The position numbers were made by a program, and so were the translations under genes. The notes below the pieces were generated by a model, which was given only the letters and a program-made list of their open reading frames with translations, was not told the DNA's origin and did no database searches. Shown piece after piece: positions 8,852-22,539 of a stretch of 46,509 bases of DNA (position 1 is the stretch's first letter; each line of letters begins with the position of its first letter). Source of the DNA: an uncultured Acidobacteriota bacterium (lineage in GTDB: Bacteria > Acidobacteriota > Vicinamibacteria > Fen-336); NCBI GenBank assembly GCA_902826455.1, contig CADEEV010000035.1:1-46509 (forward strand). The letters are read 5' to 3'.

Positions 8852-10648
8852 ATGCTCCGTCGCCTGGCTCTCACCCTTGCCCTCTGCTTCGTACTTCCAG
8901 TGCACGCCGCCGAGGATCCGGCCGTCGCCAGGAAGCTCGTGGGCCTGGATGCGTTCATGACCAAGGTCGTCCAGGATTTCAACGTCCCGGGCATCGGTAT
9001 CGGCATCGTCGTGAAGGACAAGCTGGTCTTCGCGAAGGGCTACGGCTACCGCGACTACGGCAAGAAGCTGCCGTTCACGCCGAAGACCGTGGTGCCCATC
9101 GCGTCCAACACGAAGCTGTTCACGGCCACGGCCGCGGGCCTGCTGGTGGAGGACGGCAAGCTCGAGTGGGACACGCCGGTGCGCAACAAGGTCCCCACGA
9201 TCCGCTTCTACAACGACGCCCTCGACGCCACGATCACGCTGCGCGACATGCTGTCGCACCGCACCGGCATCACGCGCCACGACTCGATCTGGTACAAGTC
9301 GGCGCTGTCGCGCAAGGAGCTGTTCGAGCGCCTCAAGTATCTCGAGCCCCAGCAGCCCATGCGCCAGACGTTCCTCTACAACAACATGATGTACGCTGGC
9401 GCCGGCTACGTTGAGGAGCTCGCTTCCGGGAAGACCTGGGAGGCGCTGGTGCAGGAGCGCATCCTCACGCCGCTCGGCATGACCTCGACCGGCTTCTCGG
9501 TGGACGACCTGCTGAAGCACCCCGAGCCGGGCGTGCCCTTCACCGAGCGCCGCGACTCCGACGAGATCTACTCGATCCCGTACTACCACGACGACAAGGG
9601 CCTGGGGCCGGCGGGCTCCATGGTCTCGAACCTCGAGGACCTCTCGCGCTGGGTCCGAGCCCAGCTGAACGACGGGAAGCTCGACGGGAAGCAGGCCCTG
9701 TCCGCCAGCGCCATCAAGGAGACGATGGCCCCGAGCATCGCCATGGTGAACAGCCAGCTGCAGTCGCGCGGCTGGGGCGAGCTGCTGAACGCGGCCTACG
9801 GCACCGGGCGCTGGACCGCGTCCTACCGCGGGCACCTCGTCTCCTACCACGGCGGCGACCTGCCCGGCTTCCACTCGCAGGTCTCGGTGATGCCGCAGGA
9901 CGGCATCGGCGTGATCGTGCTGGTGATCGGCGATCACGCGGCTCCGATCTACAACCCGCTCACCTGGACCCTCTACGAGCGCATGCTCGGCCTCTCCGAG
10001 ACGCCGTGGATGAAGCGCGTTCTGGACATCCGCGTGAAGGGCAAGGCGGCCGGCACCGAATCCCGGGCCCGCGCCGGCGGCGGCCGCGTCGCCGACACGA
10101 AGCCCTCGCACCCCCTCGCCGACTTCGAGGGCGAGTACGAGCACCCGGCCTACGGCGTGCTCAAGATCCTGGGCAAGGAGGGCGGCCTTGCGTTCGACTA
10201 CCACACGATCGCGATGCCCCTGTCCCACTTCCACTACGACCGCTTCGACAGCCCCGACGACGAGCGGGAGGGCAAGTGGTCCTTCAACTTCCTCACGAAC
10301 CCGCAGGGCGAGATCGACCAGACCGTGATCTCCCTCGACGAGGCGCCCGTGACCTTCACGCGCCGCGTCCCGGCCGAGCTCAAGGCGCTCGAGACGCTGC
10401 GCCCGTACGCGGGCACGTACCTGACGCCGACGGGCGGGCGCTTCACGGTGGTCCTCAAGGAGGACGGCGCGCTCGGCATCGTGTTTCCGGGACAGCCGTT
10501 CTCGGCGCTCCTGCCCTGGAAGCCGCGGCGCTTCCGCTCGAAGGACTTCCCGGACGTGACGTACGAGTTCGTGTCGGCGGAGGGCAAGGTGACCGAGCTC
10601 AAGTCCACGGATCCCGCCGGCGAGGATCGCTTCCCGAGACAGCCCTAG
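8852..10648 (+). CDS. Secreted serine hydrolase of the beta-lactamase/DD-peptidase (class C, S12) family
   Basis: A 598-residue exported protein with signal peptide MLRRLALTLALCFVLPVHAA. The S12/class C active site is complete: Ser85-x-x-Lys88 (SNTK), Tyr176-x-Asn178 (YNN) and His333-Gly-Gly. The catalytic domain covers about residues 25-380. The last 200 residues form a lipocalin-like or DUF3471-type beta domain (ADFEGEYEHPAYGVLKI, then LRPYAGTYLTPTGG), which often follows this fold. Substrates in the family include D-amino acid peptides, peptidoglycan fragments, esters and lactams, so the substrate is not predictable. A TTGACG promoter and an AGGAGA ribosome site precede it, and qor follows after 7 nt, so the two form an operon. 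It is one of four such hydrolases in the window. Confidence 0.9.
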   Translation: MLRRLALTLALCFVLPVHAAEDPAVARKLVGLDAFMTKVVQDFNVPGIGIGIVVKDKLVFAKGYGYRDYGKKLPFTPKTVVPIASNTKLFTATAAGLLVEDGKLEWDTPVRNKVPTIRFYNDALDATITLRDMLSHRTGITRHDSIWYKSALSRKELFERLKYLEPQQPMRQTFLYNNMMYAGAGYVEELASGKTWEALVQERILTPLGMTSTGFSVDDLLKHPEPGVPFTERRDSDEIYSIPYYHDDKGLGPAGSMVSNLEDLSRWVRAQLNDGKLDGKQALSASAIKETMAPSIAMVNSQLQSRGWGELLNAAYGTGRWTASYRGHLVSYHGGDLPGFHSQVSVMPQDGIGVIVLVIGDHAAPIYNPLTWTLYERMLGLSETPWMKRVLDIRVKGKAAGTESRARAGGGRVADTKPSHPLADFEGEYEHPAYGVLKILGKEGGLAFDYHTIAMPLSHFHYDRFDSPDDEREGKWSFNFLTNPQGEIDQTVISLDEAPVTFTRRVPAELKALETLRPYAGTYLTPTGGRFTVVLKEDGALGIVFPGQPFSALLPWKPRRFRSKDFPDVTYEFVSAEGKVTELKSTDPAGEDRFPRQP

Positions 10649-10655
10649 GAGAGCC

Positions 10656-11624
10656 ATGAAAGCCATCCGCTTCCACGCGACCGGGGGACCCGAGGTCCTG
10701 AAGCTCGAGGACCTCGAGGCGCCCCAGCCGCCGGCCCGCCACGTGCGCGTGCGCCTCGCCGCGATCGGCGTCAATTTCATCGAGGTCTACCAGCGCACCG
10801 GCCTGTACACGGTGCCGCTGCCGGCGACCCCCGGGGGCGAGGGCGCAGGCACGGTGGTCGCGGTCGGGCCGGACGTGACGACGCTCGCGGTGGGCGATCG
10901 CGTCGCCTCCTTCAACCTCCAGGGCGCCTACGCGGAGGAGGCGCTCGTGGCCGAGGACCGCGCCGTCAGGGTGCCCGACGGCGTCGACCTGCGCCAGGCC
11001 GCCGCGGCCATGCTGCAGGGCATGACCGCCCACTATCTCGCGAAGTCCACCCGCCCCCTGAGGCCCGGCGACAGCTGCCTCGTCCATGCGGCCGCGGGCG
11101 GCGTCGGCCTGCTGCTCATCCAGATCGCCAAGGCGTGCGGCGCCCGCGTGTTCGGGACCGTCTCGACGGAGGAGAAGGCGGAGCTCGCCCGTGGGGCCGG
11201 CGCGGACCAGGTGATCCTGTACACGAAGGCGGATTTCGAGGCGGAGGTCCGGAAAGCCACGAGCGGGCACGGCGTCCAGGTGGTCTACGACAGCGTCGGC
11301 GCCACCACCTGGGAGAAGAGCCTCAACTGCCTGGCTCCCCTCGGCATGCTCGTGCTGTTCGGGCAGTCGAGCGGCGTCGTTCCCCCCTTCAGTCCGGCGC
11401 TGCTCGCCCAGAAGGGGTCGCTGTTCCTCACCCGACCGACCCTGGTCCACTACGCGGCCGACCGCAAGAGCCTCGAGTGGCGGGCGGGCGAGATCCTCCG
11501 GGGCGTCGCCGACGGCACGTTGAAGCTCCGTCTCGAGCACGACTTCCCCCTTGCGCGGGCGGCCGACGCCCACCGCGATCTCGAGGGGCGGAAGACCACC
11601 GGCAAGGTCCTGCTGATACCCTAG
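10656..11624 (+). CDS. qor: NADPH:quinone oxidoreductase (zeta-crystallin type)
   Basis: A 322-residue zinc-free medium-chain reductase that reduces quinones or related enones with NADPH. The N-terminal GroES-like domain starts MKAIRFHATGGPEVL and contains GVNFIEVYQRTGLY, typical of QOR. The nucleotide-binding signature HAAAGGVG is near residue 148 and the family signature QGMTAHYL near 121. The structural zinc cysteines of alcohol dehydrogenases are absent, as expected. The AGGAG ribosome site overlaps the stop codon of the hydrolase 7 nt upstream, so the two are co-transcribed. The physiological quinone is unknown. Confidence 0.92.
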   Translation: MKAIRFHATGGPEVLKLEDLEAPQPPARHVRVRLAAIGVNFIEVYQRTGLYTVPLPATPGGEGAGTVVAVGPDVTTLAVGDRVASFNLQGAYAEEALVAEDRAVRVPDGVDLRQAAAAMLQGMTAHYLAKSTRPLRPGDSCLVHAAAGGVGLLLIQIAKACGARVFGTVSTEEKAELARGAGADQVILYTKADFEAEVRKATSGHGVQVVYDSVGATTWEKSLNCLAPLGMLVLFGQSSGVVPPFSPALLAQKGSLFLTRPTLVHYAADRKSLEWRAGEILRGVADGTLKLRLEHDFPLARAADAHRDLEGRKTTGKVLLIP

Positions 11625-11684
11625 GTCGACCTCAACATTCGTTGCGCGTTGCGGAACGCGACGCGGCCGCGCCTGCCCGGTATG

Positions 11685-11693
11685 TGGAATAAT
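11685..11693 (+). promoter_or_regulatory. Extended -10 promoter of the OSBS/racemase gene
   Basis: TG-N-AATAAT matches an extended -10 (5 of 6 in the hexamer). The hexamer ends 8 nt before the ATG at 11702, with no Shine-Dalgarno, so a leaderless transcript is likely. No -35 is evident, which is usual for extended -10 promoters. Confidence 0.55.
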
Positions 11694-11701
11694 CCAGGCC
11701 C

Positions 11702-12865
11702 ATGACGGCTCCGGCCCGAGCATCGACTGTTGCGGACGTGGCAACGCCCGCTCCCCTGCGGCTCGACGCGCTGGAGTTGCGCCTGGTGCGCCTGCCCCTC
11801 CTCGAGCCCTTCGAGGTGAGCTTCGGGCGCCTCGATACGCGCCTCGTCTTCCTCGTGAGGCTCTGGGCGGGAGGGCACTCCGGATGGGGCGAGTGCGTCG
11901 CCTTCGAGGCGCCCCTGTTCAGCTACGAGACCGTCGGCACGGCGCTCCACGTGCTGCGCGACTTCCTGGGACCGGCGGTCCTGGGCCGGCCCGTCGGCAG
12001 CCTCGCCGAGCTCGGCGCGCGCCTCGCCGCGTTCCGGGGTCACCCCATGGCGAAAGCGGGCCTCGAGCTCGCGTTCGTGGACCTCGTGGCGCGCGTGCGC
12101 GGCGTGAGCGTCTCGCGCCTCGTCGGAGGGACGCGTCGTGCGGTCGAGGTGGGCGTGAGCCTCGGGCTGCAGCCGAGCGTCGATGCCCTGGACGAGCGGG
12201 TCAACCGCTTCCTCGCCCTCGGCTACCGCCGCATCAAGGTCAAGATCAAGCCCGGCGCCGACGTGGCCGTGGTCTCCGAGATCCGGAGGCGGCACCCGTC
12301 CATTCGCCTCTCGGTGGATGCCAACGCGGCCTACACCCTCGCCGACGCCGACCGGCTCCGTCAGCTCGACGCGTGCGGGCTGCTCATGATCGAGCAGCCG
12401 CTCGCCCACGACGACCTCCTCGACCACGCGCGGCTGCAGCAGGGCCTGGCCACGGCCCTCTGTCTCGACGAGAGCCTGACCGGCTACGACCGGGCCCGGC
12501 AGGCCCTCGAGATCGGCGCGTGCCGGATCGTCAACATGAAGATCGGGCGCGTGGGCGGCTACGGCGAGGCGCTGCGCATCCACGACCTGTGCGCCTCCCG
12601 GGGCGTGCCGCTGTGGTGCGGGGGAATGCTCGAATCGGGCATCGGACGCGCCCACAATGTGGCTCTCGCGAGCCTGCCGGGCTTCACCCTGCCCGGAGAC
12701 ATCTCGGCGAGCCGTCGCTACTTCGAGAGGGACGTGATCGTGCCGCCGGTCGAAGTGGCGTCAGACGGGACCGTCGCCGTTCCCGACACACCCGGCATCG
12801 GGTTCGAGGTGGACGTCGACTTCCTGGAGAGCCGGACCGAACGCGTGGAGCGCGTCGAGCCATGA
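11702..12865 (+). CDS. menC: o-Succinylbenzoate synthase / N-acylamino acid racemase (enolase superfamily)
   Basis: A 387-residue member of the OSBS/NSAR branch of the muconate-lactonising enolase subgroup. The catalytic lysines are the KIKP pair (K181, K183) and K280 in NMKIGRVGG. Metal ligands are D206 (DANAAY), E231 (IEQPL) and D256 (DES). The C-terminal GGMLESGIGRAHN and LPGDISASRRYF stretches are diagnostic of this branch. Enzymes here make o-succinylbenzoate for menaquinone, racemise N-succinylamino acids, or do both. No other men gene is nearby; instead the gene overlaps a membrane transporter by 4 nt (ATGA), which makes a role in D-amino acid conversion plausible. About 18 N-terminal residues precede the conserved start, and a -10 lies 8 nt before the ATG. 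Confidence 0.85.
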   Translation: MTAPARASTVADVATPAPLRLDALELRLVRLPLLEPFEVSFGRLDTRLVFLVRLWAGGHSGWGECVAFEAPLFSYETVGTALHVLRDFLGPAVLGRPVGSLAELGARLAAFRGHPMAKAGLELAFVDLVARVRGVSVSRLVGGTRRAVEVGVSLGLQPSVDALDERVNRFLALGYRRIKVKIKPGADVAVVSEIRRRHPSIRLSVDANAAYTLADADRLRQLDACGLLMIEQPLAHDDLLDHARLQQGLATALCLDESLTGYDRARQALEIGACRIVNMKIGRVGGYGEALRIHDLCASRGVPLWCGGMLESGIGRAHNVALASLPGFTLPGDISASRRYFERDVIVPPVEVASDGTVAVPDTPGIGFEVDVDFLESRTERVERVEP

Positions 12866-13959
12866 ACGACTTCTTCAGGCGTTACCTGCTGCCCGGCTTC
12901 GTGTTCGAGGCGGCCGTGATCGGCGGCGGCTACGCGACCGGCCGCGAGCTCGTGGAGTTCTTCCTGCCGGCGGGGCCGCTGGGCGGCCTCGTCGGGATGG
13001 TCGTGAGCATGGTCGTCTGGAGCGCCGTGCTCGCGATCAGCTTCGAGCTGGCCCGCGTCTCGCGCTCCTACGACTACCGCTCGTTCACGAAGCTCCTGCT
13101 GGGGCCCGCCTGGTTCCTGTTCGAGATCGCCTACGTCCTGCTCATCGTCGTGATCTTCGCGGTCATGGGCGCGGCCGCCGGCGAGATCGCCCACGACCTG
13201 CTTGGGCTGCCGAAGCTCGCCGGCACGCTGCTGATGATCGCCGGCGTCGCGACGGTGCTGTTCTATCCCTCGGCGGCCATCGAGAAGTTCCTGTCGCTCT
13301 CGGTGGGCTATCTCTACCTCGTGTACTTCGTGTTCCTGACCTGGAGCCTCGTCTCGTTCGGGGGCCGCGTCGAGTCGGCGCTCGCTTCGGCGCCGCTCGG
13401 CAGCCGCTGGTTCATGGCCGGGGTGACCTACGCGTCCTACAACGTCGCGACCATCCCGGCCGTGCTCTTCTGCATCCGCCACCTGACGACCCGCCGCGAG
13501 GCGGTGGTCGCGGGCCTCGTGGCCGGGCCGCTCGCGATGCTGCCCGGCTTCGCCTTCTACATCGCGATGGTCGGCTACTCCCAGGAGATCGGCAGCGCGC
13601 CGCTGCCCTCGGCCTTCCTGCTCGCCAAGCTGGGAGCGCCGTGGTTCGCGTGGGCGTTCCAGTTCGGCGTCCTGCTGACGCTGGTGGACACCGGCGTGCC
13701 GATCCTGCACTCCATCAACGAACGCGTCGCGAAGGTCTACGAGGAGCGCCGCAGGGTCATGCCCCAGGCGCTGCGGCCGGCGATCGCGGTAGGCGTCATG
13801 CTGCTCTCCGTCTTCGCCGCCTCCGCGGTCGGCCTCGTCGGGCTCATCGCGCGGGGCTACGGGCTGCTGACCTATGCCTTCATCGCGCTGCTCGTCGTGC
13901 CGGTCCTGACGATCGGGCTCTACCGGATCCGCGGCCTCACTTCTTCGGGGCGGGCCTGA
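12862..13959 (+). CDS. YkvI-like membrane protein (APC-superfamily transporter homologue)
   Basis: A 365-residue integral membrane protein with about ten hydrophobic helices. The N-terminal GGGYATGRELVEFF matches the conserved opening of the YkvI group (COG3949), distant relatives of LeuT/APC amino acid transporters; no member has a well-defined substrate to my knowledge. The broken first helix with Gly-rich residues is consistent with a transporter. The ATG overlaps the racemase stop by 4 nt (ATGA), so production is coupled and an acylated or D-amino acid substrate can be suggested but not shown. The 3' end overlaps the convergent serine hydrolase gene by 23 nt. Confidence 0.82.
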   Translation: MNDFFRRYLLPGFVFEAAVIGGGYATGRELVEFFLPAGPLGGLVGMVVSMVVWSAVLAISFELARVSRSYDYRSFTKLLLGPAWFLFEIAYVLLIVVIFAVMGAAAGEIAHDLLGLPKLAGTLLMIAGVATVLFYPSAAIEKFLSLSVGYLYLVYFVFLTWSLVSFGGRVESALASAPLGSRWFMAGVTYASYNVATIPAVLFCIRHLTTRREAVVAGLVAGPLAMLPGFAFYIAMVGYSQEIGSAPLPSAFLLAKLGAPWFAWAFQFGVLLTLVDTGVPILHSINERVAKVYEERRRVMPQALRPAIAVGVMLLSVFAASAVGLVGLIARGYGLLTYAFIALLVVPVLTIGLYRIRGLTSSGRA

Positions 13960-15529
13960 AGTCGAGGTCCTGGTAGTCGAAGCTGAAGTCCGCGAGGGGT
14001 GAGACCGCGCGCAGGGCGATGCGGGCCACGGCGCCGTCGGCGTCGAGGGCGAACGTCACGTAGGCCGGCTCGATGAGCGGGTCGCGCCACCTCGTCCGGA
14101 ACGTGTCGTACTGCCAGTGCGCGAGCTCTCCAGTCATGCCCGGCGTCTGCTTGAAGTCGATCGCCAGCTTCCCGTCGTGGAGCGCGATCGCGATCGGCCC
14201 GTACCAGGCGTCGGCGTAGTCGCCGGCGTAGCGCGCGAGCGGCAGCGACGGCCCCGCGCCGGCGGGAGCGCTCGTCTGCTTCTTCAGGAACGCGACCGCC
14301 TTCTCGTCCCGCTCGCGCACGAACTGCTGCCACGCGGCGCCCCAGTCGTAGGCCGGCTGGCCCAGGTAGTGGTCGAGAAGCTCGTAGGCGATCCCGAGGG
14401 CGGCTTCCCCGTCCTCGCAGTTGATGGCCACGGAGAGGCCGACCTCGCGCTCGGGAACCAGCATGATGATGGCCTGCGCACCGAAGACCGCGCCGGTGTG
14501 CGTCAGGAGGCGATGCCCACGGTAGTCGCGCTCCGACCAGCCGAGGGCGTAGGCGTCGAACTGCGGCGTCGCCGCCGCCACCGGCTTCGGGAGCGGCGAG
14601 ATGGGCAGCGGCACCCGCGGCCTCCACATCTCCCGCGAGGCCGCCTCGCTGAAGAGCCGGCCCGAGCCCCCCGGAAGCGCGCCGCGACCGAGCTGGATCA
14701 GCATCCAGCGGGCCATGTCGTGAGCGCTGGCGGCGATGGCTCCGGCCGGCGCCGCGTTCTGACCCAGCTCCGGGTCGAACTCGGCCCGGCCGCTGTCGTC
14801 GAGGGCCTTCTGCGTCCCCATGCCGTGCATCGGGCCGTCGAGACGGGCGTGGGGCCAGGCGCGGTTGAGCGTGGCGCGCCGATCGACGCGGTTGGAGGTC
14901 GCGGTCCGCAAGCCGGCGGGCACGAGGACGGCCTCGCGCACGAACTGTTCCCAGGTCTTCCCCGTCACCTCCTCGATGAGCTGCCCCGCGGCCGCGTACA
15001 GGACGTTGTCGTACGCGTAGGCGCTGCGGAAGCTGGTCGCCGGCTTGATGAAGCGCAGCCGGCGCACGGTCTCGACGCGAGAGAGGTTCGAGCGCGGCAC
15101 GAACATCAGGTCTCCGGCGCCCAGGCCGAGGCCGCTGCGATGCACGAGCAGGTCGACCACGGTCATCTCGCGCGTGACCCAGGGGTCGTACATCTGGAAC
15201 CAAGGCAGGTGCTTCGTGACGGGGTCGTCCCACGCGATCCGACCCTGGTCGACGAGCACCGCCAGCGCCGCCGTCGTGAACGCCTTGCCCACGGAGCCCA
15301 GCTGGAAGATCGTGTCCGCGTCGACGGGCGCCGCGTCGTCGAGGCGGCGCACGCCGTAGCCGCGCGCCAGAGCGAGGCTGCCGTGCTCGACGACCGCCAC
15401 GGAGATTCCCGGCACGCCGATGTCGGTGCGGAGCTTCTCGACGCGGGCGTCGAAGCCGGCGGGCACCTCGGCCTGGACGGCGCCGCTCAGCAGGCAGGCC
15501 GCGGCCGCGAGGATCACCGCTCTCGGCAA
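13937..15529 (-). CDS. Secreted serine hydrolase of the class C beta-lactamase/S12 family
   Basis: A 530-residue exported protein; the signal peptide ends at AVQA near residue 20. The active-site motifs are intact: S79-x-x-K82 (SVGK), Y173-x-N175 (YDN) and H344-T-G. A C-terminal beta domain follows from about residue 430 (YAGDYADAWYGPIAIALHDGKL). The gene follows the TonB-dependent receptor stop by 4 nt, so the pair forms an operon: the receptor would import what the hydrolase releases or accepts. The start is TTG at 15529; the alternative GTG at 15517 would remove the positive charge before the signal sequence. Substrate is unknown; peptides with D-residues and small esters are the usual options. 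Confidence 0.88.
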   Translation of the reverse strand: MPRAVILAAAACLLSGAVQAEVPAGFDARVEKLRTDIGVPGISVAVVEHGSLALARGYGVRRLDDAAPVDADTIFQLGSVGKAFTTAALAVLVDQGRIAWDDPVTKHLPWFQMYDPWVTREMTVVDLLVHRSGLGLGAGDLMFVPRSNLSRVETVRRLRFIKPATSFRSAYAYDNVLYAAAGQLIEEVTGKTWEQFVREAVLVPAGLRTATSNRVDRRATLNRAWPHARLDGPMHGMGTQKALDDSGRAEFDPELGQNAAPAGAIAASAHDMARWMLIQLGRGALPGGSGRLFSEAASREMWRPRVPLPISPLPKPVAAATPQFDAYALGWSERDYRGHRLLTHTGAVFGAQAIIMLVPEREVGLSVAINCEDGEAALGIAYELLDHYLGQPAYDWGAAWQQFVRERDEKAVAFLKKQTSAPAGAGPSLPLARYAGDYADAWYGPIAIALHDGKLAIDFKQTPGMTGELAHWQYDTFRTRWRDPLIEPAYVTFALDADGAVARIALRAVSPLADFSFDYQDLDFRPAPKK

Positions 15530-15533
15530 CGGC

Positions 15534-17873
15534 CTACGAGCCCCAGAACCGGGTGGAGAGCGAGATCCCGACGGTCCGCGGCCGGACGATGCCCAGGCCG
15601 ATGGCGCCGTTCGGCAGGCCTCCCGCCGGATTGATCTCGGTGACCCCCTGGTCGTTGGTGAGGTTCTTGGCGTAGAGCTCCACGGACCAGCGACCCAGGA
15701 AGGCTCCCGCGCGCAGGTTGAGCGTGGTGTAGCCGTCGAGCTTCCGGATGCTGCCGTTCGCCACGCGGCTGTCGAACTCGGCCGTGCGTTCGCCGGTGTA
15801 GCCGAGGCTGCCGCCGACGTAGGCGCGGGTGCTCCCCTTCAGGTTCCACTCGTAGTCCGCGTTGAGCCCGAAGCTCCACTCGGGGACGTACGGGAGGGCG
15901 TCGCCGTCCTTCCCGCCGACCACCGGATCGGTGTCCTCGGTGAGCTCCGCGTTGGTGTAGGCGCCGTTCACCGAGAGCGCCAGGCCGTTCGTCGGATAGA
16001 CGCTGGCCGCGAGCTCCAGGCCCTTGCTCGCCGCGGTGCCGCCGTTACCGTTGACGCCGAAGTCGTTCACGACCAGGAACAGCTGGACGTCCTCCCAGTC
16101 GAGGTAGAACGCGCTCAGGTCCAGCGAGAACTTGTCGGCGGGGCCGCCGGTCTTGAGGCCGAGCTCGTAGTTCGTGAGACGGTCCGAGTCGTAGCTGCGC
16201 GGGACGCCCGCCGGCGCCCCGGGAGGAAGCACGTTCGGGCCGCCGGGCCGGAAGCCGGTGGCGACTCGGCCATAGATCGAGGCGTTGCTTCCGATCTCGT
16301 AACGCGGCGCCACCGAGAACGTGAACGGGCTCTCGGACGACTCCACGTCGTCGAAGGTCGTGAGCCCGCCGACCAGCGGGCCGTCCGAGACCTGGGACGC
16401 GAGCTGCGTGTTGTGGCTCAGGCGTCCGCCCACGCCGATGTCGAAGCGGGGCGTCGCGTGCCAGGTCGCGTTCGCGAAACCGGCGAACTCCTCGTAGCTC
16501 GAGTCGAGGTTGATGGCGGCCAGCGCGGGAAGGCCGGCCGCGGTTCTCTCCGTGCCGGCTTCGACCGCGACGATGTCCTGATGGATGAGCGAGTCTTCCT
16601 TCGTGTAGTAGCCACCCACCAGCCACTCGAGCGTCTCGTTCCTGGCCGACACCAGCCGCAGCTCCTGCGAGAACTTGTCCGTGCTGGTCGTCTGGGGAAG
16701 CACGGCGCTCAGGGGACGCGTTTCGGGGTCGCCGAACAGGAGCGTGACGAGCGAGGCGAGGGGCGGACCGCCAGTGAGGTTGGTGGCGATCGCGAGGTCG
16801 CTGCGGAAGTCCGCTTCGAACTTTCCGAAGCTCGTGATCGATTCGAGGCTGGCGCCGCCGAGGTTCCAGTCGAGGCTCGCGTTGTAGACCCGGTACTTCG
16901 TGTCGTTCTTCTCGCGCTGGTAGCGCGACTGCACGGGGTCGCTCTCGAGGGGCTCCAGGCTCTCGGGATCGGCGTCGACGACGCTCGCGCCGTCGCTGTC
17001 GAGGTTCTGCAGCTGGAGCCCGAGGTTGACCGTGACCTTGTCGGAAGGCTTGAACAGGGCGGCGAAGCGGCCGCCGAAGCGGTCGATGGAGTTGAGCCCG
17101 TCGTCGACGAGCGTCCCGCGGAGCACGTTCACCCCCGGGTTCGTGAGGCTCGGGATGGGGTTGCTGCCGATCGAGTCGATGAAGCCGCTGTCGAAGCGGT
17201 AGAAGCCGCTGCCGCGCAGCGCCACCTTCTCGTTCAGCGGGAGGTTCACGAGCCCCGTCAGGGCGTAGCCGGGATCGCCGTTGTCGACGCTCTCGGCGCT
17301 GCCCTTGAAGCGCGCCTCGAAGCGCTCGGTGTTCGGGCGGTTCGGGACGTACTTGATGACGCCGCCCAGGGAGCTGGCGCCGTACAGCGTGCCCTGGGGC
17401 CCGCGCAGCACCTCGATCCGGGCCACGTCGAAGGTGTCGAAGTCGCCCGAGACGATCGCCCCGTTCGCGAGCCCGGTGCTCGAGCCGAACGGCACGTCGT
17501 CGAAGTAGACGCCGATGGTGGACGCGACGCCCCCGGTGTTGATGCCGCGCAGCGTCACGCGCGTCACACCGGGCCGGGTCGAGTTGGTGCTGAGGCCCGG
17601 TACCAGGGGAACGAGAGCCTGGAAGTCGTCGGCGCCCTGCTGCTCCAGGAGCTGGCCGCCCACGACGGTCACCGAGGCCGGGATGTCCTGGACCGTCTCG
17701 GTACGCTTCTGCGCGGTGACGACGACCTCTTCGCGAAAGCTCGGCCGCTTCCCCGCATCGTCGGCCGCCGCGTCCTTCTCCTGCGCCGGAGCCGGGGCCG
17801 TTTCCTGGGCCCGTGCCGGCGGCACGGCCAGCGATGCCGCAAGGGCGAGAACGCTCGTTCCATAGAGCCGCAT
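15534..17873 (-). CDS. TonB-dependent outer-membrane receptor
   Basis: A 779-residue outer-membrane active transporter. Signal peptide MRLYGTSVLALAASLAVPPARAQ is followed by an acidic, Ala/Pro-rich linker. The likely TonB box and plug start at EEVVVTAQKRTETVQD (about residue 49), and the plug contains VTLRGINTGG and VLRGPQGTLYGASSLGGV. A 22-strand barrel with alternating aromatic residues fills the rest, and the chain ends FWGS. The sequence type (TAQKR plug, LRGPQGTLYG) is that of proteobacterial receptors for siderophores, sugars or other small molecules, not the SusC or Oar types. The ATG has a strong GGGAGGTGG site. The promoter has a 16-bp operator exactly between -35 and -10. The cargo is unknown; the serine hydrolase 4 nt downstream is the best clue. 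Confidence 0.93.
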   Translation of the reverse strand: MRLYGTSVLALAASLAVPPARAQETAPAPAQEKDAAADDAGKRPSFREEVVVTAQKRTETVQDIPASVTVVGGQLLEQQGADDFQALVPLVPGLSTNSTRPGVTRVTLRGINTGGVASTIGVYFDDVPFGSSTGLANGAIVSGDFDTFDVARIEVLRGPQGTLYGASSLGGVIKYVPNRPNTERFEARFKGSAESVDNGDPGYALTGLVNLPLNEKVALRGSGFYRFDSGFIDSIGSNPIPSLTNPGVNVLRGTLVDDGLNSIDRFGGRFAALFKPSDKVTVNLGLQLQNLDSDGASVVDADPESLEPLESDPVQSRYQREKNDTKYRVYNASLDWNLGGASLESITSFGKFEADFRSDLAIATNLTGGPPLASLVTLLFGDPETRPLSAVLPQTTSTDKFSQELRLVSARNETLEWLVGGYYTKEDSLIHQDIVAVEAGTERTAAGLPALAAINLDSSYEEFAGFANATWHATPRFDIGVGGRLSHNTQLASQVSDGPLVGGLTTFDDVESSESPFTFSVAPRYEIGSNASIYGRVATGFRPGGPNVLPPGAPAGVPRSYDSDRLTNYELGLKTGGPADKFSLDLSAFYLDWEDVQLFLVVNDFGVNGNGGTAASKGLELAASVYPTNGLALSVNGAYTNAELTEDTDPVVGGKDGDALPYVPEWSFGLNADYEWNLKGSTRAYVGGSLGYTGERTAEFDSRVANGSIRKLDGYTTLNLRAGAFLGRWSVELYAKNLTNDQGVTEINPAGGLPNGAIGLGIVRPRTVGISLSTRFWGS

Positions 17874-17918: not shown

Positions 17919-17947
17919 ATCAAAGCATCACGTGTTGCATGTGTCAA
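17919..17947 (-). promoter_or_regulatory. Promoter of the TonB receptor-serine hydrolase operon
   Basis: On the minus strand TTGACA (17947-17942, perfect -35) and TTTGAT (17924-17919) are separated by 17 nt. The spacer is almost entirely filled by operator copy 1, which is the position expected for repression. The start codon is about 45 nt downstream. Confidence 0.65.
17924..17939. promoter_or_regulatory. Operator copy 1 (receptor side)
   Basis: AGCATCACGTGTTGCA. The core GCA-T-CACGTG-T-TGC is a 14-bp dyad with two mismatched positions. It matches operator copy 2 at 15 of 16 positions and fills the spacer between the -35 and -10 of the receptor promoter. Confidence 0.6.
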
Positions 17948-17964
17948 GCCCGTGCTGGACCGCC

Positions 17965-17993
17965 TTGACGCGTGGCCCGCTCCAGTGGGATAA
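17965..17993 (+). promoter_or_regulatory. Promoter of the membrane-anchored serine hydrolase
   Basis: TTGACG (17965-17970), 17 nt, then GGATAA (17988-17993); GATAAG with 18-nt spacing is equivalent. The predicted start near 18000 places operator copy 2 across the transcription start. Confidence 0.55.
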
Positions 17994-18001
17994 GACGGCC
18001 C

Positions 18002-18017
18002 AGCATCAAGTGTTGCA
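18002..18017. promoter_or_regulatory. Operator copy 2 (plus-strand side)
   Basis: AGCATCAAGTGTTGCA, identical to copy 1 except for one base in the centre. It is 78 bp from copy 1 in the same orientation and lies immediately downstream of the plus-strand -10, where a bound repressor would block initiation. Confidence 0.6.
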
Positions 18018-18052: not shown

Positions 18053-20047
18053 ATGATCTTCGCCTCACGCCGCCTCGAGCTTCTCTGCGGGACCGTGACG
18101 GTCGCGACCCTCGCCGCCGCCTTCGGGGGCGTGGCCGCCGCGGGCCGTCCTTTCTCGGGCTCTGCCGACGTGACGTATCGGCCGATCGCCTCCGCCGCAC
18201 CGCAGCCGCTGCCCGGGGGCGGGCTCAGGACGCGCGAGGAACTCGAAGCCTTCGTCGACGGCTTCGTCGGCGGCGAGCAGAAGGCCTACGAGCTCGCCGG
18301 CGCCACGGTCGCGGTCGTGAAGGACGGACAGCTCTTCTTCGCGAAGGGCTACGGCTGGGCCGACGTCGATCGCCACGTGCCCGTGGTCGCGGAGGAGACG
18401 CTGTTCCGCCCCGGCTCGGTCTCGAAGCTCCTGACCTGGACCGCGGTGATGCAGCTCGTCGAGCAGGGCAAGCTCGATCTCGACGCCGACGTGAACACGT
18501 ACGTCACCCAGTTCAAGGTCCCGCCGGCGTTCGACGGCCCGATCACGCTGCGCCACGCGCTCACACACACCGTCGGCATGGAGGACGGCGGCATCGGCTA
18601 CCTGATGGCGCGCAGCCCCCAGGACATCGTGCCCCTCGCGACGTCCCTCGCGGCTCACGTGCCGGCCCGCGTGCGCCCGGCCGGCACGAGCACCGATGGC
18701 CTCGGCGCGTCCTACTCGAACTGGGCGACGTCCCTCGCCGGCCTCGTCGTCGCGAACGTCTCCGGAGTGCCGTTCGAGGACTACGTGCAGCAGAACGTCC
18801 TGGGCCCCCTGGACATGCAGAGCAGCACCTTCAAGGAGCCGCTCCCCGAGGCGCTCCAGAAGCGCATGTCGAACGGCTACGCCTTCGAGGCGGGGGCGTT
18901 CAAGGCGAAGGGCTACGAGTACGTCGCGAACTTCGGGCCGGCAGGCTCCCTCGCGGCGACCTCCACGGACATGGCGCGCTTCATGATCGCGCACCTCTCC
19001 CAGGGGGCCATCGGCGATGCGCGCATCCTGAAGCCCGAGACGGTGCAGGCGATGCACGCGCGGGTCTTCAGCCCGAGCCCGGCGGTGGACGGCGCGGCGC
19101 TCGGCTTCTACGAGACGTACATGAACGGCCGGCGCGTGATCGGACACGGCGGCGACACGAACTACTTCCACACCGAGCTGGGACTGCTCGAGGCCGAAGG
19201 GGTCGGCTTCTTCTTCTGCGTCAACACCGGCGACAAGGCGGCCCTGGTCCCGAGGCACTTCGCGCGCGCCTTCATGGATCACTACTTCCCCGCGGCGCTG
19301 CCCGAGCTGAAGCCGCCCGCGGATTTCGCCTCGCGCGCCGGACGCTACGCCGGCCACTACCGCGCCCTCCGTCATTCCTACACGCGCTTCGAGAAGATCT
19401 TCGCCCTGCTGGGGGGATCGAGCGTGACGCCCACGGCGGACAACAAGCTCGTGATCCCCGGCCTGCTCGGGGACGTGAGGCAGTACGTCGAGGTGGCGCC
19501 CGGCGTCGTGCGCGAGGCGGACGGCGATCGCACCATCGCCTTCGTCGAGGACGGCAAGGGCGAGGTCGTCGGCATGGTCGGCCAGTTCGCCTTCATCCCG
19601 TTCTACAAGCTGCGCTGGTTCGAGGCCCCGCCCTTCCACTTCGCGCTGCTCGGCTACTGCGTGCTGTTCTTCCTGGTGGCGGTCGTCTCGGCCCTGCGGC
19701 ACTGGAAGAGCGACAAGGCGGGGCCGAGAAGCGCGCGCTCGGCCCGTCTAAACCTCGGCGCTCTCGGGGCCCTCAACCTGCTCTTCGTCGTGGGCTTCGC
19801 GTCGATCATCGCCGCCGGGCTCGACGAGCTGATCTTCGCGATCCCGAAGAGCCTCTACGCCGTGCTGACCCTCCCGCTCGTCGCGGGCGTTCTCGCGCTG
19901 GTGGCGGCGTTCCTCGTCGGACGCGTCTGGCGAGAGGGCTACTGGACGCGCGGCGCGCGCATCCTGCACACGGCCGGCGTCGTGGGGGCTATCGCGTTCC
20001 TCTGGTTCCTGAACTTCTGGAACCTGCTCGGCTACCGGATCGGATAG
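18053..20047 (+). CDS. Serine hydrolase (S12 family) with C-terminal four-helix membrane domain
   Basis: A 664-residue protein. An N-terminal hydrophobic segment (residues 8-30) exports the catalytic domain, whose motifs are complete: S122-x-x-K125 (SVSK), Y221-x-N223 (YSN) and H365-G-G. A beta-rich linker domain spans about 430-520. Four hydrophobic helices follow (about 528-550, 570-590, 600-623, 640-661), ending LGYRIG. The layout anchors a periplasmic hydrolase in the inner membrane, as in some PBP4*/LACTB-type proteins. The ATG at 18053 was chosen for its AGGAGA site and signal sequence; the frame extends upstream without support. It shares an operator with the divergent receptor operon, so it is probably co-regulated. 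The 3' end overlaps the rpiR-type gene by 59 nt. Confidence 0.88.
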   Translation: MIFASRRLELLCGTVTVATLAAAFGGVAAAGRPFSGSADVTYRPIASAAPQPLPGGGLRTREELEAFVDGFVGGEQKAYELAGATVAVVKDGQLFFAKGYGWADVDRHVPVVAEETLFRPGSVSKLLTWTAVMQLVEQGKLDLDADVNTYVTQFKVPPAFDGPITLRHALTHTVGMEDGGIGYLMARSPQDIVPLATSLAAHVPARVRPAGTSTDGLGASYSNWATSLAGLVVANVSGVPFEDYVQQNVLGPLDMQSSTFKEPLPEALQKRMSNGYAFEAGAFKAKGYEYVANFGPAGSLAATSTDMARFMIAHLSQGAIGDARILKPETVQAMHARVFSPSPAVDGAALGFYETYMNGRRVIGHGGDTNYFHTELGLLEAEGVGFFFCVNTGDKAALVPRHFARAFMDHYFPAALPELKPPADFASRAGRYAGHYRALRHSYTRFEKIFALLGGSSVTPTADNKLVIPGLLGDVRQYVEVAPGVVREADGDRTIAFVEDGKGEVVGMVGQFAFIPFYKLRWFEAPPFHFALLGYCVLFFLVAVVSALRHWKSDKAGPRSARSARLNLGALGALNLLFVVGFASIIAAGLDELIFAIPKSLYAVLTLPLVAGVLALVAAFLVGRVWREGYWTRGARILHTAGVVGAIAFLWFLNFWNLLGYRIG

Positions 20048-21014
20048 GAACCGTCGCCTCGTCGCGGCCCGGCGCCTCCTCGTACCAGCGCGGGCCCGCG
20101 AGGTATTCCTTCTCCGTCTGGCGCAAGAGCGCCAGGGCCCGGCTCGGCGCGATCTCGGCGCAGGCCAGGACGATCGCGTTCAGGAGCGCCATCGGCGCCA
20201 CGTACGAGCCGCTGAAGGTGGCGCCCGCCGTCGCCGCGACGAAGTAGTCGTCGCACTCCCGGGCCAGCGGCGTCGTGTCGCTGTCGGTGATCGCGACGGT
20301 CGCGACGCGCCGGCTGCGCGCGAGCTTGGCCGCCTCCACCGTCACTCGCAGGCAGCGGCCGAAGCTGATGGCCACGAGCAGGTCCTTGCGCGACAGGAGC
20401 CGCACCTTGTGCTGCAGGTTGCCGCCCGTGCCGGCCGGCGCCTCGGCGTCGAAGCCCAGGGGCAGCAACGCGTAGGCGAAGAAGGACGCGAGGGACGTGG
20501 CGAGATCGGAGCCGACGACCAGGATGCGGCGGGCCTGGTGGATGCGCCGCGCGAAGCTCACGACGCGCTCGGCGTCGAGCCCGCTCTGCAGCCGGTTCAG
20601 GTTGCCGAGGTCTCGCTCCAGGCTGTGGCGGACGTGGTCGGCGAGGCTCCGCTTCGCGTCGGTCGTCGCCTTCAGGATGCGGTAGGGCGTGAGCCGGGAG
20701 ACGAAGTGCTCGCGCAGGTCGGCCGCGAAGTCGGTGTAGCGCTCGTACCCGAGGGCCTGCACGGTGCGGACGATCGTGGCGGGGTCGACGCGGTAGCGGC
20801 GGGCGAGGGCGCGCGACGAGAGGAAGAACGTCTCGTCGGGGTTCTCCAGGGTCGCCTGCAGCAGCCGCCGGCGGTTCGGCGAGAGCCGGCTCTCGAAGCG
20901 GGCGATCCTCGTCTCGATGGCCGTGCGGGTCGGAATGCGCGCGTCCTTTCTCTGCGTCGAGGCCTCGCGATGATCGTCGCTTTCGCGGGGCGACGCAACG
21001 CGCCGCCCCGCCAT
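19989..21014 (-). CDS. RpiR-family transcriptional regulator (HTH + SIS domain)
   Basis: About 341 residues if started at the ATG at 21014. After a 35-residue charged leader come the RpiR helix-turn-helix (ETRIARFESRLSPNRRRLL to VDPATIVRTVQALGY) and a SIS sugar-phosphate-binding domain beginning ARRILVVGSDLATSLASFF. Members sense phosphorylated sugars; MurR, for example, responds to N-acetylmuramic acid 6-phosphate. The start is uncertain: the leader is atypical, and an ATT codon in frame near 20937 has a better AAAGGA site upstream. The gene follows the B3/B4 protein by 11 nt. The last 20 residues, rich in Arg, Ser and Gly, come from the stretch overlapping the convergent hydrolase. It is the nearest regulator to the twin operators and so a candidate, unproven, for binding them. 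Confidence 0.82.
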   Translation of the reverse strand: MAGRRVASPRESDDHREASTQRKDARIPTRTAIETRIARFESRLSPNRRRLLQATLENPDETFFLSSRALARRYRVDPATIVRTVQALGYERYTDFAADLREHFVSRLTPYRILKATTDAKRSLADHVRHSLERDLGNLNRLQSGLDAERVVSFARRIHQARRILVVGSDLATSLASFFAYALLPLGFDAEAPAGTGGNLQHKVRLLSRKDLLVAISFGRCLRVTVEAAKLARSRRVATVAITDSDTTPLARECDDYFVAATAGATFSGSYVAPMALLNAIVLACAEIAPSRALALLRQTEKEYLAGPRWYEEAPGRDEATVPIRSGSRAGSRSSGTRGTR

Positions 21015-21025
21015 CCCCGCCGCGC

Positions 21026-21688
21026 CTAGATCAGGCGCCGCTCGACCACCGCGCCGCCGCAGTGCCGCGTCAGGGTGCGCTCGGTGTCGTCGAGGACCGG
21101 GTTGAGGCGATTCGCGAGATAGGTGGCCGGCGCGTAGACGGTCACGAGCGCCCGTGTCGCGCCCAGGGCGATGCAGGTGCGGGCGGAGTCGGAGGTCGGG
21201 TTGCCGAAGGCGCCCCGGGCGTCGGAGAGCACCGGCCGGTCCTCGACGTTGACCGCGGCCTTGCGGATCCCCTCGTAGCTCTCGCCGGCCGTGCCCTTGC
21301 GCAGGACGACGGCGCCCTCGACGCGGTCGAGGTCGTAGAGGCCGAACGGGAGCTGGGCGCGGAGGGAGCACAGGTTGAGGGCGTCCACGAGGGTGTTGAT
21401 CCGGTAGAGCGCCTCGCCCTTCAGCGCACGGCGTGCGAGCGCCTCGCTGGAAGGCCGGGTCTTGGTGGGATCGAGGCCGAGCGCCTTGTAGAGCATGCGC
21501 GCGTCCTCGGCTCCGGGGATCTCGGCGCTCTTGCCGCCGCCGTAGCGGGCACGCAGCTCGGCGCAGTAGGCGTCCACCTCCGCGGCGAGGGCGGGATCGG
21601 CCTCGCGAACGGTGACGCCGTCGAGGACCAGCACGCCCAGGCGCGCCTTGCCGGCGAGGGAAGCGTCGATCGAGATCTCGAGGGACAT
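21026..21688 (-). CDS. Free-standing B3/B4 (PheRS beta editing-like) domain protein
   Basis: A 220-residue protein resembling the B3/B4 domain of the phenylalanyl-tRNA synthetase beta subunit, which in that enzyme hydrolyses Tyr-tRNA(Phe). Recognisable parts are the YKALGLDPTKTRPSSEALARR helix region near residue 90, RINTLVDALNLCSLRAQLP near 113, YDLDRVEG, and the late GNPTSDSARTCIALGATRAL. The ATG at 21688 was chosen for an AAGGGT site 8 nt after the previous stop. Stand-alone members (COG3382) are widespread but poorly characterised. It lies between a regulatory ATPase and an RpiR regulator, an unexpected place for a tRNA quality-control factor, so a small-molecule-binding role is also possible. 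Confidence 0.78.
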   Translation of the reverse strand: MSLEISIDASLAGKARLGVLVLDGVTVREADPALAAEVDAYCAELRARYGGGKSAEIPGAEDARMLYKALGLDPTKTRPSSEALARRALKGEALYRINTLVDALNLCSLRAQLPFGLYDLDRVEGAVVLRKGTAGESYEGIRKAAVNVEDRPVLSDARGAFGNPTSDSARTCIALGATRALVTVYAPATYLANRLNPVLDDTERTLTRHCGGAVVERRLI

Positions 21689-21696
21689 GGGACCCT

Positions 21697-22539
21697 TCAG
21701 GCCGTGTGCTTGATCAGGAGCACTTCGTTGCCCTGCTCGTTGTAGATCAGCTCGTTGACGACGTTCTTCGCGACCAGCAGGCCGAAGCCTCCGGGCCGCA
21801 GGCCCTTCTCCGCCCTCACCGCCATGTGGGCGATGGGATCCTCGGGAGGGTTCGAGACCGCGGCGTGAGGCAGCGCGTCGCGGCGGAAGCCGTGGCCGGG
21901 GTCGCGCACGTAGAACACGATCGCGCGCGCCGTGCGGATCGCCGTCACCTCCACGACCTTGTCGGGATCGAAGTGCGCGCCGTGCTCCATGGCGTTCAGC
22001 AGGATCTCCCGGAACGCCGTGAGCAGCTCCTCGCGCTCGGGCCCCGGCACGTCGGAGCGCAGCTCCTCGAAGTACTGGACGACGCGCTCGGCCGTGGCCG
22101 GGCTGCAGTTGACGCGCAGCGAGATCCACTCCGGCTCGGCCGTCACCACGTCGATGCCCTCGCGGGGGTCGGGGGTGTCGAGGGCGCTCTTCAGCATCGA
22201 GGCCAGCTCGGGTACCTCGAAGGGCACCGTGAAGCACGCGAAGACGTGGGCGCGCAGCGCCGCGATCACGTCCTCGGGGGTCGCCTTCGGGGCCAGGATC
22301 ACGACGCTCAGGCGCCGCCGCACGAGGAGCATCTCCTCCACCAGGTCGAGATCGTCCTCGACGCTCGTGTCCAGGCTCGTGACGACCGCGCCGAAGGAGC
22401 GTCGCCGCAGCTGCCTCAGGGCCGAGACGCTTCCCGAGGCGACCTCGATCTCGACGCCTTCGAGGTCGGGGTGGCGGGCGAGCTCGTCGCGGAGCGTCGG
22501 TCCCGGGGCGATGAGGAGGATGCGGCGGGGCGCAGTCAT
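21697..22539 (-). CDS. Degenerate receiver domain fused to RsbW-type histidine-kinase-like ATPase
   Basis: A 280-residue cytosolic protein with two domains. Residues 5-120 fold like a response-regulator receiver, but the acidic pair after strand 1 is replaced by Ala-Pro (residues 11-12) and the conserved Lys before Pro-Phe is Val105. Only D57 could accept phosphate, so it is probably a pseudo-receiver. Residues 150-280 are a GHKL ATPase of the RsbW/SpoIIAB anti-sigma kind: N-box EILLNAMEHG, G1 VRDPGHGF and G2 GLRPGGFGLLVAKN. Such proteins phosphorylate an anti-sigma antagonist or bind a sigma factor; no partner is visible here. A TAGGCT -10 ends 9 nt before the ATG with no Shine-Dalgarno. It is the first gene of the operon with the B3/B4 and RpiR genes. 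Confidence 0.85.
   Translation of the reverse strand: MTAPRRILLIAPGPTLRDELARHPDLEGVEIEVASGSVSALRQLRRRSFGAVVTSLDTSVEDDLDLVEEMLLVRRRLSVVILAPKATPEDVIAALRAHVFACFTVPFEVPELASMLKSALDTPDPREGIDVVTAEPEWISLRVNCSPATAERVVQYFEELRSDVPGPEREELLTAFREILLNAMEHGAHFDPDKVVEVTAIRTARAIVFYVRDPGHGFRRDALPHAAVSNPPEDPIAHMAVRAEKGLRPGGFGLLVAKNVVNELIYNEQGNEVLLIKHTA

Follow-up and report, generated by a model that had tools for sequence, protein, structure and literature searches.

A predicted RpiR-family regulon for D-amino-acid peptide scavenging in Acidobacteriota, with operators set in and around its promoters

Introduction

What reads the two almost identical words that lie in the gap between a TonB-dependent receptor gene and a divergent serine hydrolase gene of an uncultured acidobacterium, and which genes are switched through them? 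Acidobacteriota are abundant in soils, and their feeding is poorly known. The gap lies in a stretch of 46,509 nucleotides (the window), belonging to a genome of 5.26 Mb (G000), and next to the hydrolase gene lies a gene for an RpiR-family regulator, an orthologue of which occurs in three of 14 genomes of the family: G000 itself, G002 (cluster L027) and G010 (cluster L028).

Genes of the locus

The genes around the gap, with their family assignments, are the following.

11702 to 12865, plus strand: N-succinylamino-acid racemase/OSBS family enzyme (TIGR01928, 328 bits, cut-off 200.65)
12862 to 13959, plus strand: multi-helix membrane protein, probably a transporter, 77% identical in the G002 cluster and 73% in that of G216
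13937 to 15529, minus strand: S12B serine hydrolase with DUF3471, separated from the preceding receptor gene by 4 bp
15534 to 17873, minus strand: TonB-dependent outer-membrane receptor with Plug and barrel domains
18053 to 20047, plus strand: S12C serine hydrolase, with a family orthologue in G002 only
19989 to 20936, minus strand: RpiR-family regulator (HTH_6 and SIS domains), the single HTH_6 protein encoded in G000

The structures in the PDB nearest to the racemase are 2zc8 and 1r0m, and given these and the TIGR01928 match the label "dipeptide epimerase" was dropped for this gene. The membrane protein encoded next to it, which has no Pfam or NCBIfam match, is probably YkvI-like; its structure model, at a confidence of 51, was left out of the argument. 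The regulator matches PF01418 (HTH_6) at 31.4 bits, the cut-off being 28.3, and PF01380 (SIS) at 59.7 bits, and its structure model (pLDDT 86) has a fold that matches NanR (4ivn), 3sho, RccR and MurR (7en5, 7en7). Its reading frame has no ATG, GTG or TTG near its start in the window; the proposed start is an ATT at 20936-20934 (minus strand), preceded by a purine-rich stretch resembling a ribosome site, and G002 and G010 have ATT or ATA at the same place, G002 with an upstream ATG as well. Directly upstream of the regulator gene and on the same strand lies a gene for a B3/4-domain protein (21026-21700), of which no counterpart was found in the G002 cluster. At the other end, a third S12 hydrolase with DUF3471 (8852-10648) and a zinc-binding dehydrogenase (10656-11624) adjoin the regulon as a pair with no site upstream.

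Four sites of one palindrome

The two words that the first-pass annotation had reported, AGCATCACGTGTTGCA (17924-17939) and AGCATCAAGTGTTGCA (18002-18017), stand exactly at these positions, and a pattern search of the whole genome with up to two mismatches allowed returned these two 16-base words as its sole matches. Within the 179-bp gap the top non-overlapping pair of 16-mers is identical at 15 of 16 positions, the maximum over 300 Markov shuffles being 13 of 16. A weak third match at 11719 led to a second pair, and direct scans, from which all operator positions are taken, place four sites in the window, each a variant of one 14-bp palindrome, GCAWCRnnYGTTGC, with GCAACAnnTGTTGC as its ideal form. 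Neither this second pair nor the 14-bp palindrome was recorded in the first-pass annotation, which spoke of a near-palindromic core. The candidate operators are listed below.

17925 to 17938, plus strand: operator 1, GCATCACGTGTTGC, within the 17-bp spacer of the predicted TonB-receptor promoter; kept in G002 (L027 10281)
18003 to 18016, plus strand: operator 2, GCATCAAGTGTTGC, just 3' of the -10 of the predicted S12C promoter; same 14-mer in G002 (L027 10412)
11632 to 11645, plus strand: operator 3, TCAACATTCGTTGC, upstream of the predicted racemase promoter, centred at about -63; kept, by alignment, at L027 2814 and L028 8363
11720 to 11733, plus strand: operator 4, GCATCGACTGTTGC, in codons 7-11 of the racemase gene; kept at L027 2904 and L028 8459

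A leave-one-genome-out position weight matrix, to which the sites of the window did not contribute, ranks these four first to fourth in the 46.5 kb, at 15.2 against 11.3 for the next match. Pattern searches, from which the genome-wide counts derive, gave eight matches to KCAWCRnnYGTTGC in G000, four of them in the window cluster, and none to the reversed control; at the clusters of the two relatives lie four of five matches (G002) and four of seven (G010). Outside the clusters, each match examined in G000 and G002 occurs alone within a long open frame and was taken as chance; one off-cluster match in G010 (L115 1999) may be near a gene start. When the 14-mer was searched with one mismatch in 40 relatives, the counts were mostly not above those of reversed controls, so that the motif is a local one and not a genome-wide repeat. 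The single matches within coding frames are what one would point to in calling the window sites a chance repeat or a repetitive element; against that reading, to which we assign a negligible probability, stand the shuffles, the conservation of the sites at the clusters of both G002 and G010, and their near-fixed register at promoters.

Operator placement at promoters

Three predicted promoter features accompany the sites.

17919 to 17947, minus strand: predicted TonB-receptor promoter TTGACA-17-TTTGAT with copy 1 inside its spacer; TTGACA-17-TGTGAT in G002, in the same register
17965 to 17993, plus strand: predicted S12C promoter TTGACG-17-GGATAA; similar in G002 (TTGACG/GGATAG)
11685 to 11693, plus strand: predicted extended -10 of the racemase, TGGAATAAT, 8 nt before the ATG

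The placement of copy 1 in the 17-bp spacer of a TTGACA-TTTGAT promoter, already proposed in the first-pass annotation, was found as described (minus strand, 17947-17919). Copy 2, said there to cover the start region of a TTGACG-GGATAA promoter, lies just downstream of the predicted -10: with TTGACG at 17965 as the -35, the -10 can be read as GGATAA or GATAAG, and the copy begins about 10 bp downstream of it. As each promoter of the receptor/hydrolase divergon has a site of its own, uptake and both hydrolases can come under a single regulator, as had been envisaged. The other pair flanks the start of the racemase gene at 11702, and since the same sites thus also cover the racemase-transporter operon, the earlier idea of a self-contained scavenging system is not supported. 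Counterparts of the extended -10, picked by eye, are TGAGACAAT in G002 and TGGTATACA in G010, at 7-9 nt from the ATG, so that the racemase transcript is probably leaderless or nearly so, with operator 4 in its first codons.

Across the genomes compared, 12 promoters have the operator in their 17-bp spacer at a nearly constant position: it begins 3 nt past the -35 in G000 and G002 and 4 nt past it in other genomes, where the -10 begins on the last base of the operator. A degenerate version of this operator-in-spacer module has 13 matches in 23 loci and none in 20 shuffled sets; the strict version, searched in 396 genomes, has seven matches, which all fall in five of the ten genomes with a close RpiR orthologue; the remaining 386 genomes and the reversed controls have none (Fisher P 3.2e-9). 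Two of the seven lie away from RpiR, at a distance of about 10 kb in one case and on a different contig in the other, and both stand 5' of an S12 hydrolase gene on the right strand, a finding that worked as a blind prediction.

This placement bears on the sense of the control. The RpiR protein could be an activator, or a repressor at some sites and an activator at others, like RccR with KDPG; RccR responds differently at two types of site (PMC5489143), and some sites do lie upstream, such as operator 3 at about -63 and a site in L075 (10708) just 5' of a -35. Most, however, are found within the spacer or beyond the start point, which fits occlusion, and the -35 elements of these promoters are near consensus, so that no activator is needed; activation in either form strikes us as rather improbable.

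DNA looping across the 78 bp between the divergon sites had also been suggested. The site spacings in the window amount to 7.4 and 8.4 helical turns (8.6 and 12.5 in G002, and near-whole to half turns elsewhere), and as those of the window are not whole, looping finds no support in the spacing and was not adopted; nor is looping between pairs needed. Paired sites 30-31 bp apart, or about three helical turns, occur before receptor or hydrolase genes in L076, L082 and L083.

Conservation and the link to RpiR

The three family genomes with an RpiR orthologue are exactly those with paired sites. G002 has the same cluster as the window, with sites at 2814, 2904, 10281 and 10412 of L027, and G010 a different one, made up of an S12-VanX fusion, racemase, RpiR, M20 and a TonB receptor of another type, where the sites are at 8363, 8459, 11663 and 11704 of L028. 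The scan of the genome and its relatives proposed by the first-pass annotation thus finds the divergon pair to be unique in its genome at up to two mismatches and paired sites to recur in these two. Absence of the motif from the homologous gap in close relatives had been named as what would count against the twin operators; since S12C has its only family orthologue in G002, that gap can be compared in one genome alone, where both sites are present. A second racemase paralogue (51-56% identical) also occurs in genomes that lack RpiR and carries no site, which marks the RpiR-linked racemase as an extra, dedicated copy. In the fusion protein of G010 (L028 5917-8292), an AmpH-like S12 serine hydrolase and a VanX/DdpX-like D-Ala-D-Ala dipeptidase form one chain, and a similar protein, 58% identical, is encoded at L077 4190-6493.

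Elsewhere in the class and in the phylum, the regulator has orthologues with 48-63% identity. With a matrix made from the three family genomes and applied to the 600 bp upstream of RpiR (P < 0.05 per locus), a site was found at 11 of 14 such held-out orthologues (combined P 3.7e-13, to be read as a guide, like the single P values, as the 14 loci are related and not strictly independent tests) and at none of seven distant RpiRs. One carrier outside the class, L082, has, on one strand, the exact sequence GCATCACGTGTTGC. The recognition helix reads T(I/V)(V/I)RT(V/I)QALGY in most carriers and TVLR(T/A)I.(G/S)(M/L)GF in non-carriers; L079, with a 54% identical RpiR and a full D-peptide gene set, has no upstream site and a differing helix, TILRATQVLGY, and L044 and L050 have no site upstream of RpiR and one elsewhere. 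In L046-L049 and L084-L086, distant RpiRs (30-38% identity) are encoded near SusC-type TonB receptors, with a different recognition helix seen in L046-L049, which suggests a second RpiR-receptor pairing with another operator.

The window has no site upstream of rpiR, as might be expected if the sites belonged to another, unlinked regulator and RpiR were a bystander gene. Site presence tracks both RpiR identity and the recognition helix across the phylum, however, and the distant loci mostly have their site in the gap upstream of rpiR, so that we give the bystander reading very little credence. On this comparative evidence, the repeated words are almost certainly operators of the adjacent RpiR protein.

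Cargo and effector

The clusters of relatives extend the gene set: M20 peptidases occur in L027, L028 and L079, the last of which also has a DppA-like M55 D-aminopeptidase, an aminotransferase and a GNAT protein, and L082 has an M19 dipeptidase, an amidohydrolase and a GNAT protein. The NSAR/OSBS racemase family also includes OSBS enzymes of menaquinone synthesis, and the S12 hydrolases are a broad family. Judged by their families, the cluster genes probably form an outfit that imports and trims peptides with D-residues and converts D- to L-amino acids; in the window, neither M20 nor GNAT is adjacent to the racemase, and only the comparison with relatives completes the racemase route there. 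Peptidoglycan fragments had been put forward as the cargo; D-amino-acid peptides, possibly from peptidoglycan, describe it better than muropeptide sugars do.

The same operators and regulator could nonetheless serve a sugar-phosphate effector such as MurNAc-6-phosphate and a regulon for muropeptide recycling, as with MurR of Escherichia coli, and the first-pass annotation had pointed to known RpiR regulators that sense sugar phosphates. The RpiR fold matches those of MurR (7en5/7en7) and NanR (4ivn), and D-Ala-D-Ala type enzymes in G010 fit peptidoglycan. Against this, the RpiR of the window scores 29.6 bits with the MurR equivalog NF012026 (cut-off 408); no murQ above cut-off was found in the genome (best match to TIGR00274, 30.4 bits, cut-off 302); the clusters showed no sugar kinase or glycosidase in their family matches; and the phosphate loop of NanR, SSSGST (SxSGxT), aligns with ISFGRC (in ISFGRCLRVT) in the window RpiR, and throughout the close clade (ISFGRC/ISFRKC) with SFGRC, SFGRG, SFRKC or near variants. 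The lack of a murQ above cut-off and the replaced loop make a sugar phosphate, MurNAc-6-phosphate especially, a less likely effector, and we judge this reading unlikely. Our guess is an N-acyl amino acid or D-peptide. A wider proposal, which we hold tentatively and with somewhat less than even confidence, is that this Acidobacteriota RpiR clade gave up sugar-phosphate sensing, and that its SFGRC/SFRKC SIS domain responds to an N-acyl amino acid or D-peptide, with a widespread D-peptide regulon under its control through the near-fixed-register operator-in-spacer promoter.

Proposed mechanism

From the sites, their positions and conservation, the co-occurrence of the regulator and the gene families, we infer binding, repression, effector and substrate as follows: RpiR probably represses a D-peptide scavenging regulon through these operators, by blocking RNA polymerase. 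An RpiR dimer would bind the palindrome GCAACAnnTGTTGC. On the receptor promoter it would cover the spacer between -35 and -10 so that RNA polymerase could not bind, and on the S12C and racemase promoters it would sit just past the start point, the latter promoter having a second site upstream. The regulon would comprise, in the window, the TonB receptor, two S12 hydrolases, the racemase and the membrane transporter, and in relatives additionally M20 and M19 peptidases, a D-aminopeptidase, the S12-VanX fusion and GNAT. Its products would import and trim D-amino-acid peptides, and the freed D-amino acids would be N-acylated, racemised and deacylated to give L-amino acids, an intermediate, for instance an N-acyl amino acid or a D-dipeptide, presumably causing derepression.

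Relation to known systems and significance

The N-succinylamino-acid racemase route for D-amino acids is known from work on Geobacillus, with which the present system shares an NSAR/OSBS subfamily racemase and, in relatives, M20 and GNAT genes; it differs in its predicted placement under RpiR with outer-membrane receptors and S12 hydrolases, and in that M20 and GNAT are not adjacent in the window. An operator between -35 and -10 is a general repressor architecture, whereas here the register is kept before different receptor types and S12 genes across the phylum. With the solved RpiR/MurR repressors NanR, MurR and RccR, the regulator shares the HTH_6 and SIS architecture, the fold, and palindromic operators at catabolic promoters, but its operator sequence differs, the SxSGxT loop is not kept, and the predicted regulon is one for D-peptides with TonB receptors. 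The Pseudomonas regulators HexR and RccR are RpiR-family dimers that bind pseudo-palindromes (TTGT-N7-8-ACAA and TGTAGT/ACTACA, respectively), govern central carbon metabolism and respond to KDPG, with two 15-bp RccR sites lying before aceEF (PMC5489143). Those two sites are comparable to the paired sites here, while the operator words, the role in central carbon metabolism and the KDPG effector differ. A literature search found no report of RpiR with D-aminopeptidase or of acidobacterial RpiR with TonB, and for dipeptide epimerase with RpiR unrelated work only. What emerges would thus be a new regulon under a known kind of regulator, with comparative support across the phylum.

The system offers a testable set of regulator, operator and targets for the recovery of D-amino-acid peptides, for example from bacterial cell-wall debris, and its operator word by itself finds further regulon members in genomes. 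It also questions the habit of taking every RpiR/SIS regulator as a sensor of sugar phosphates.
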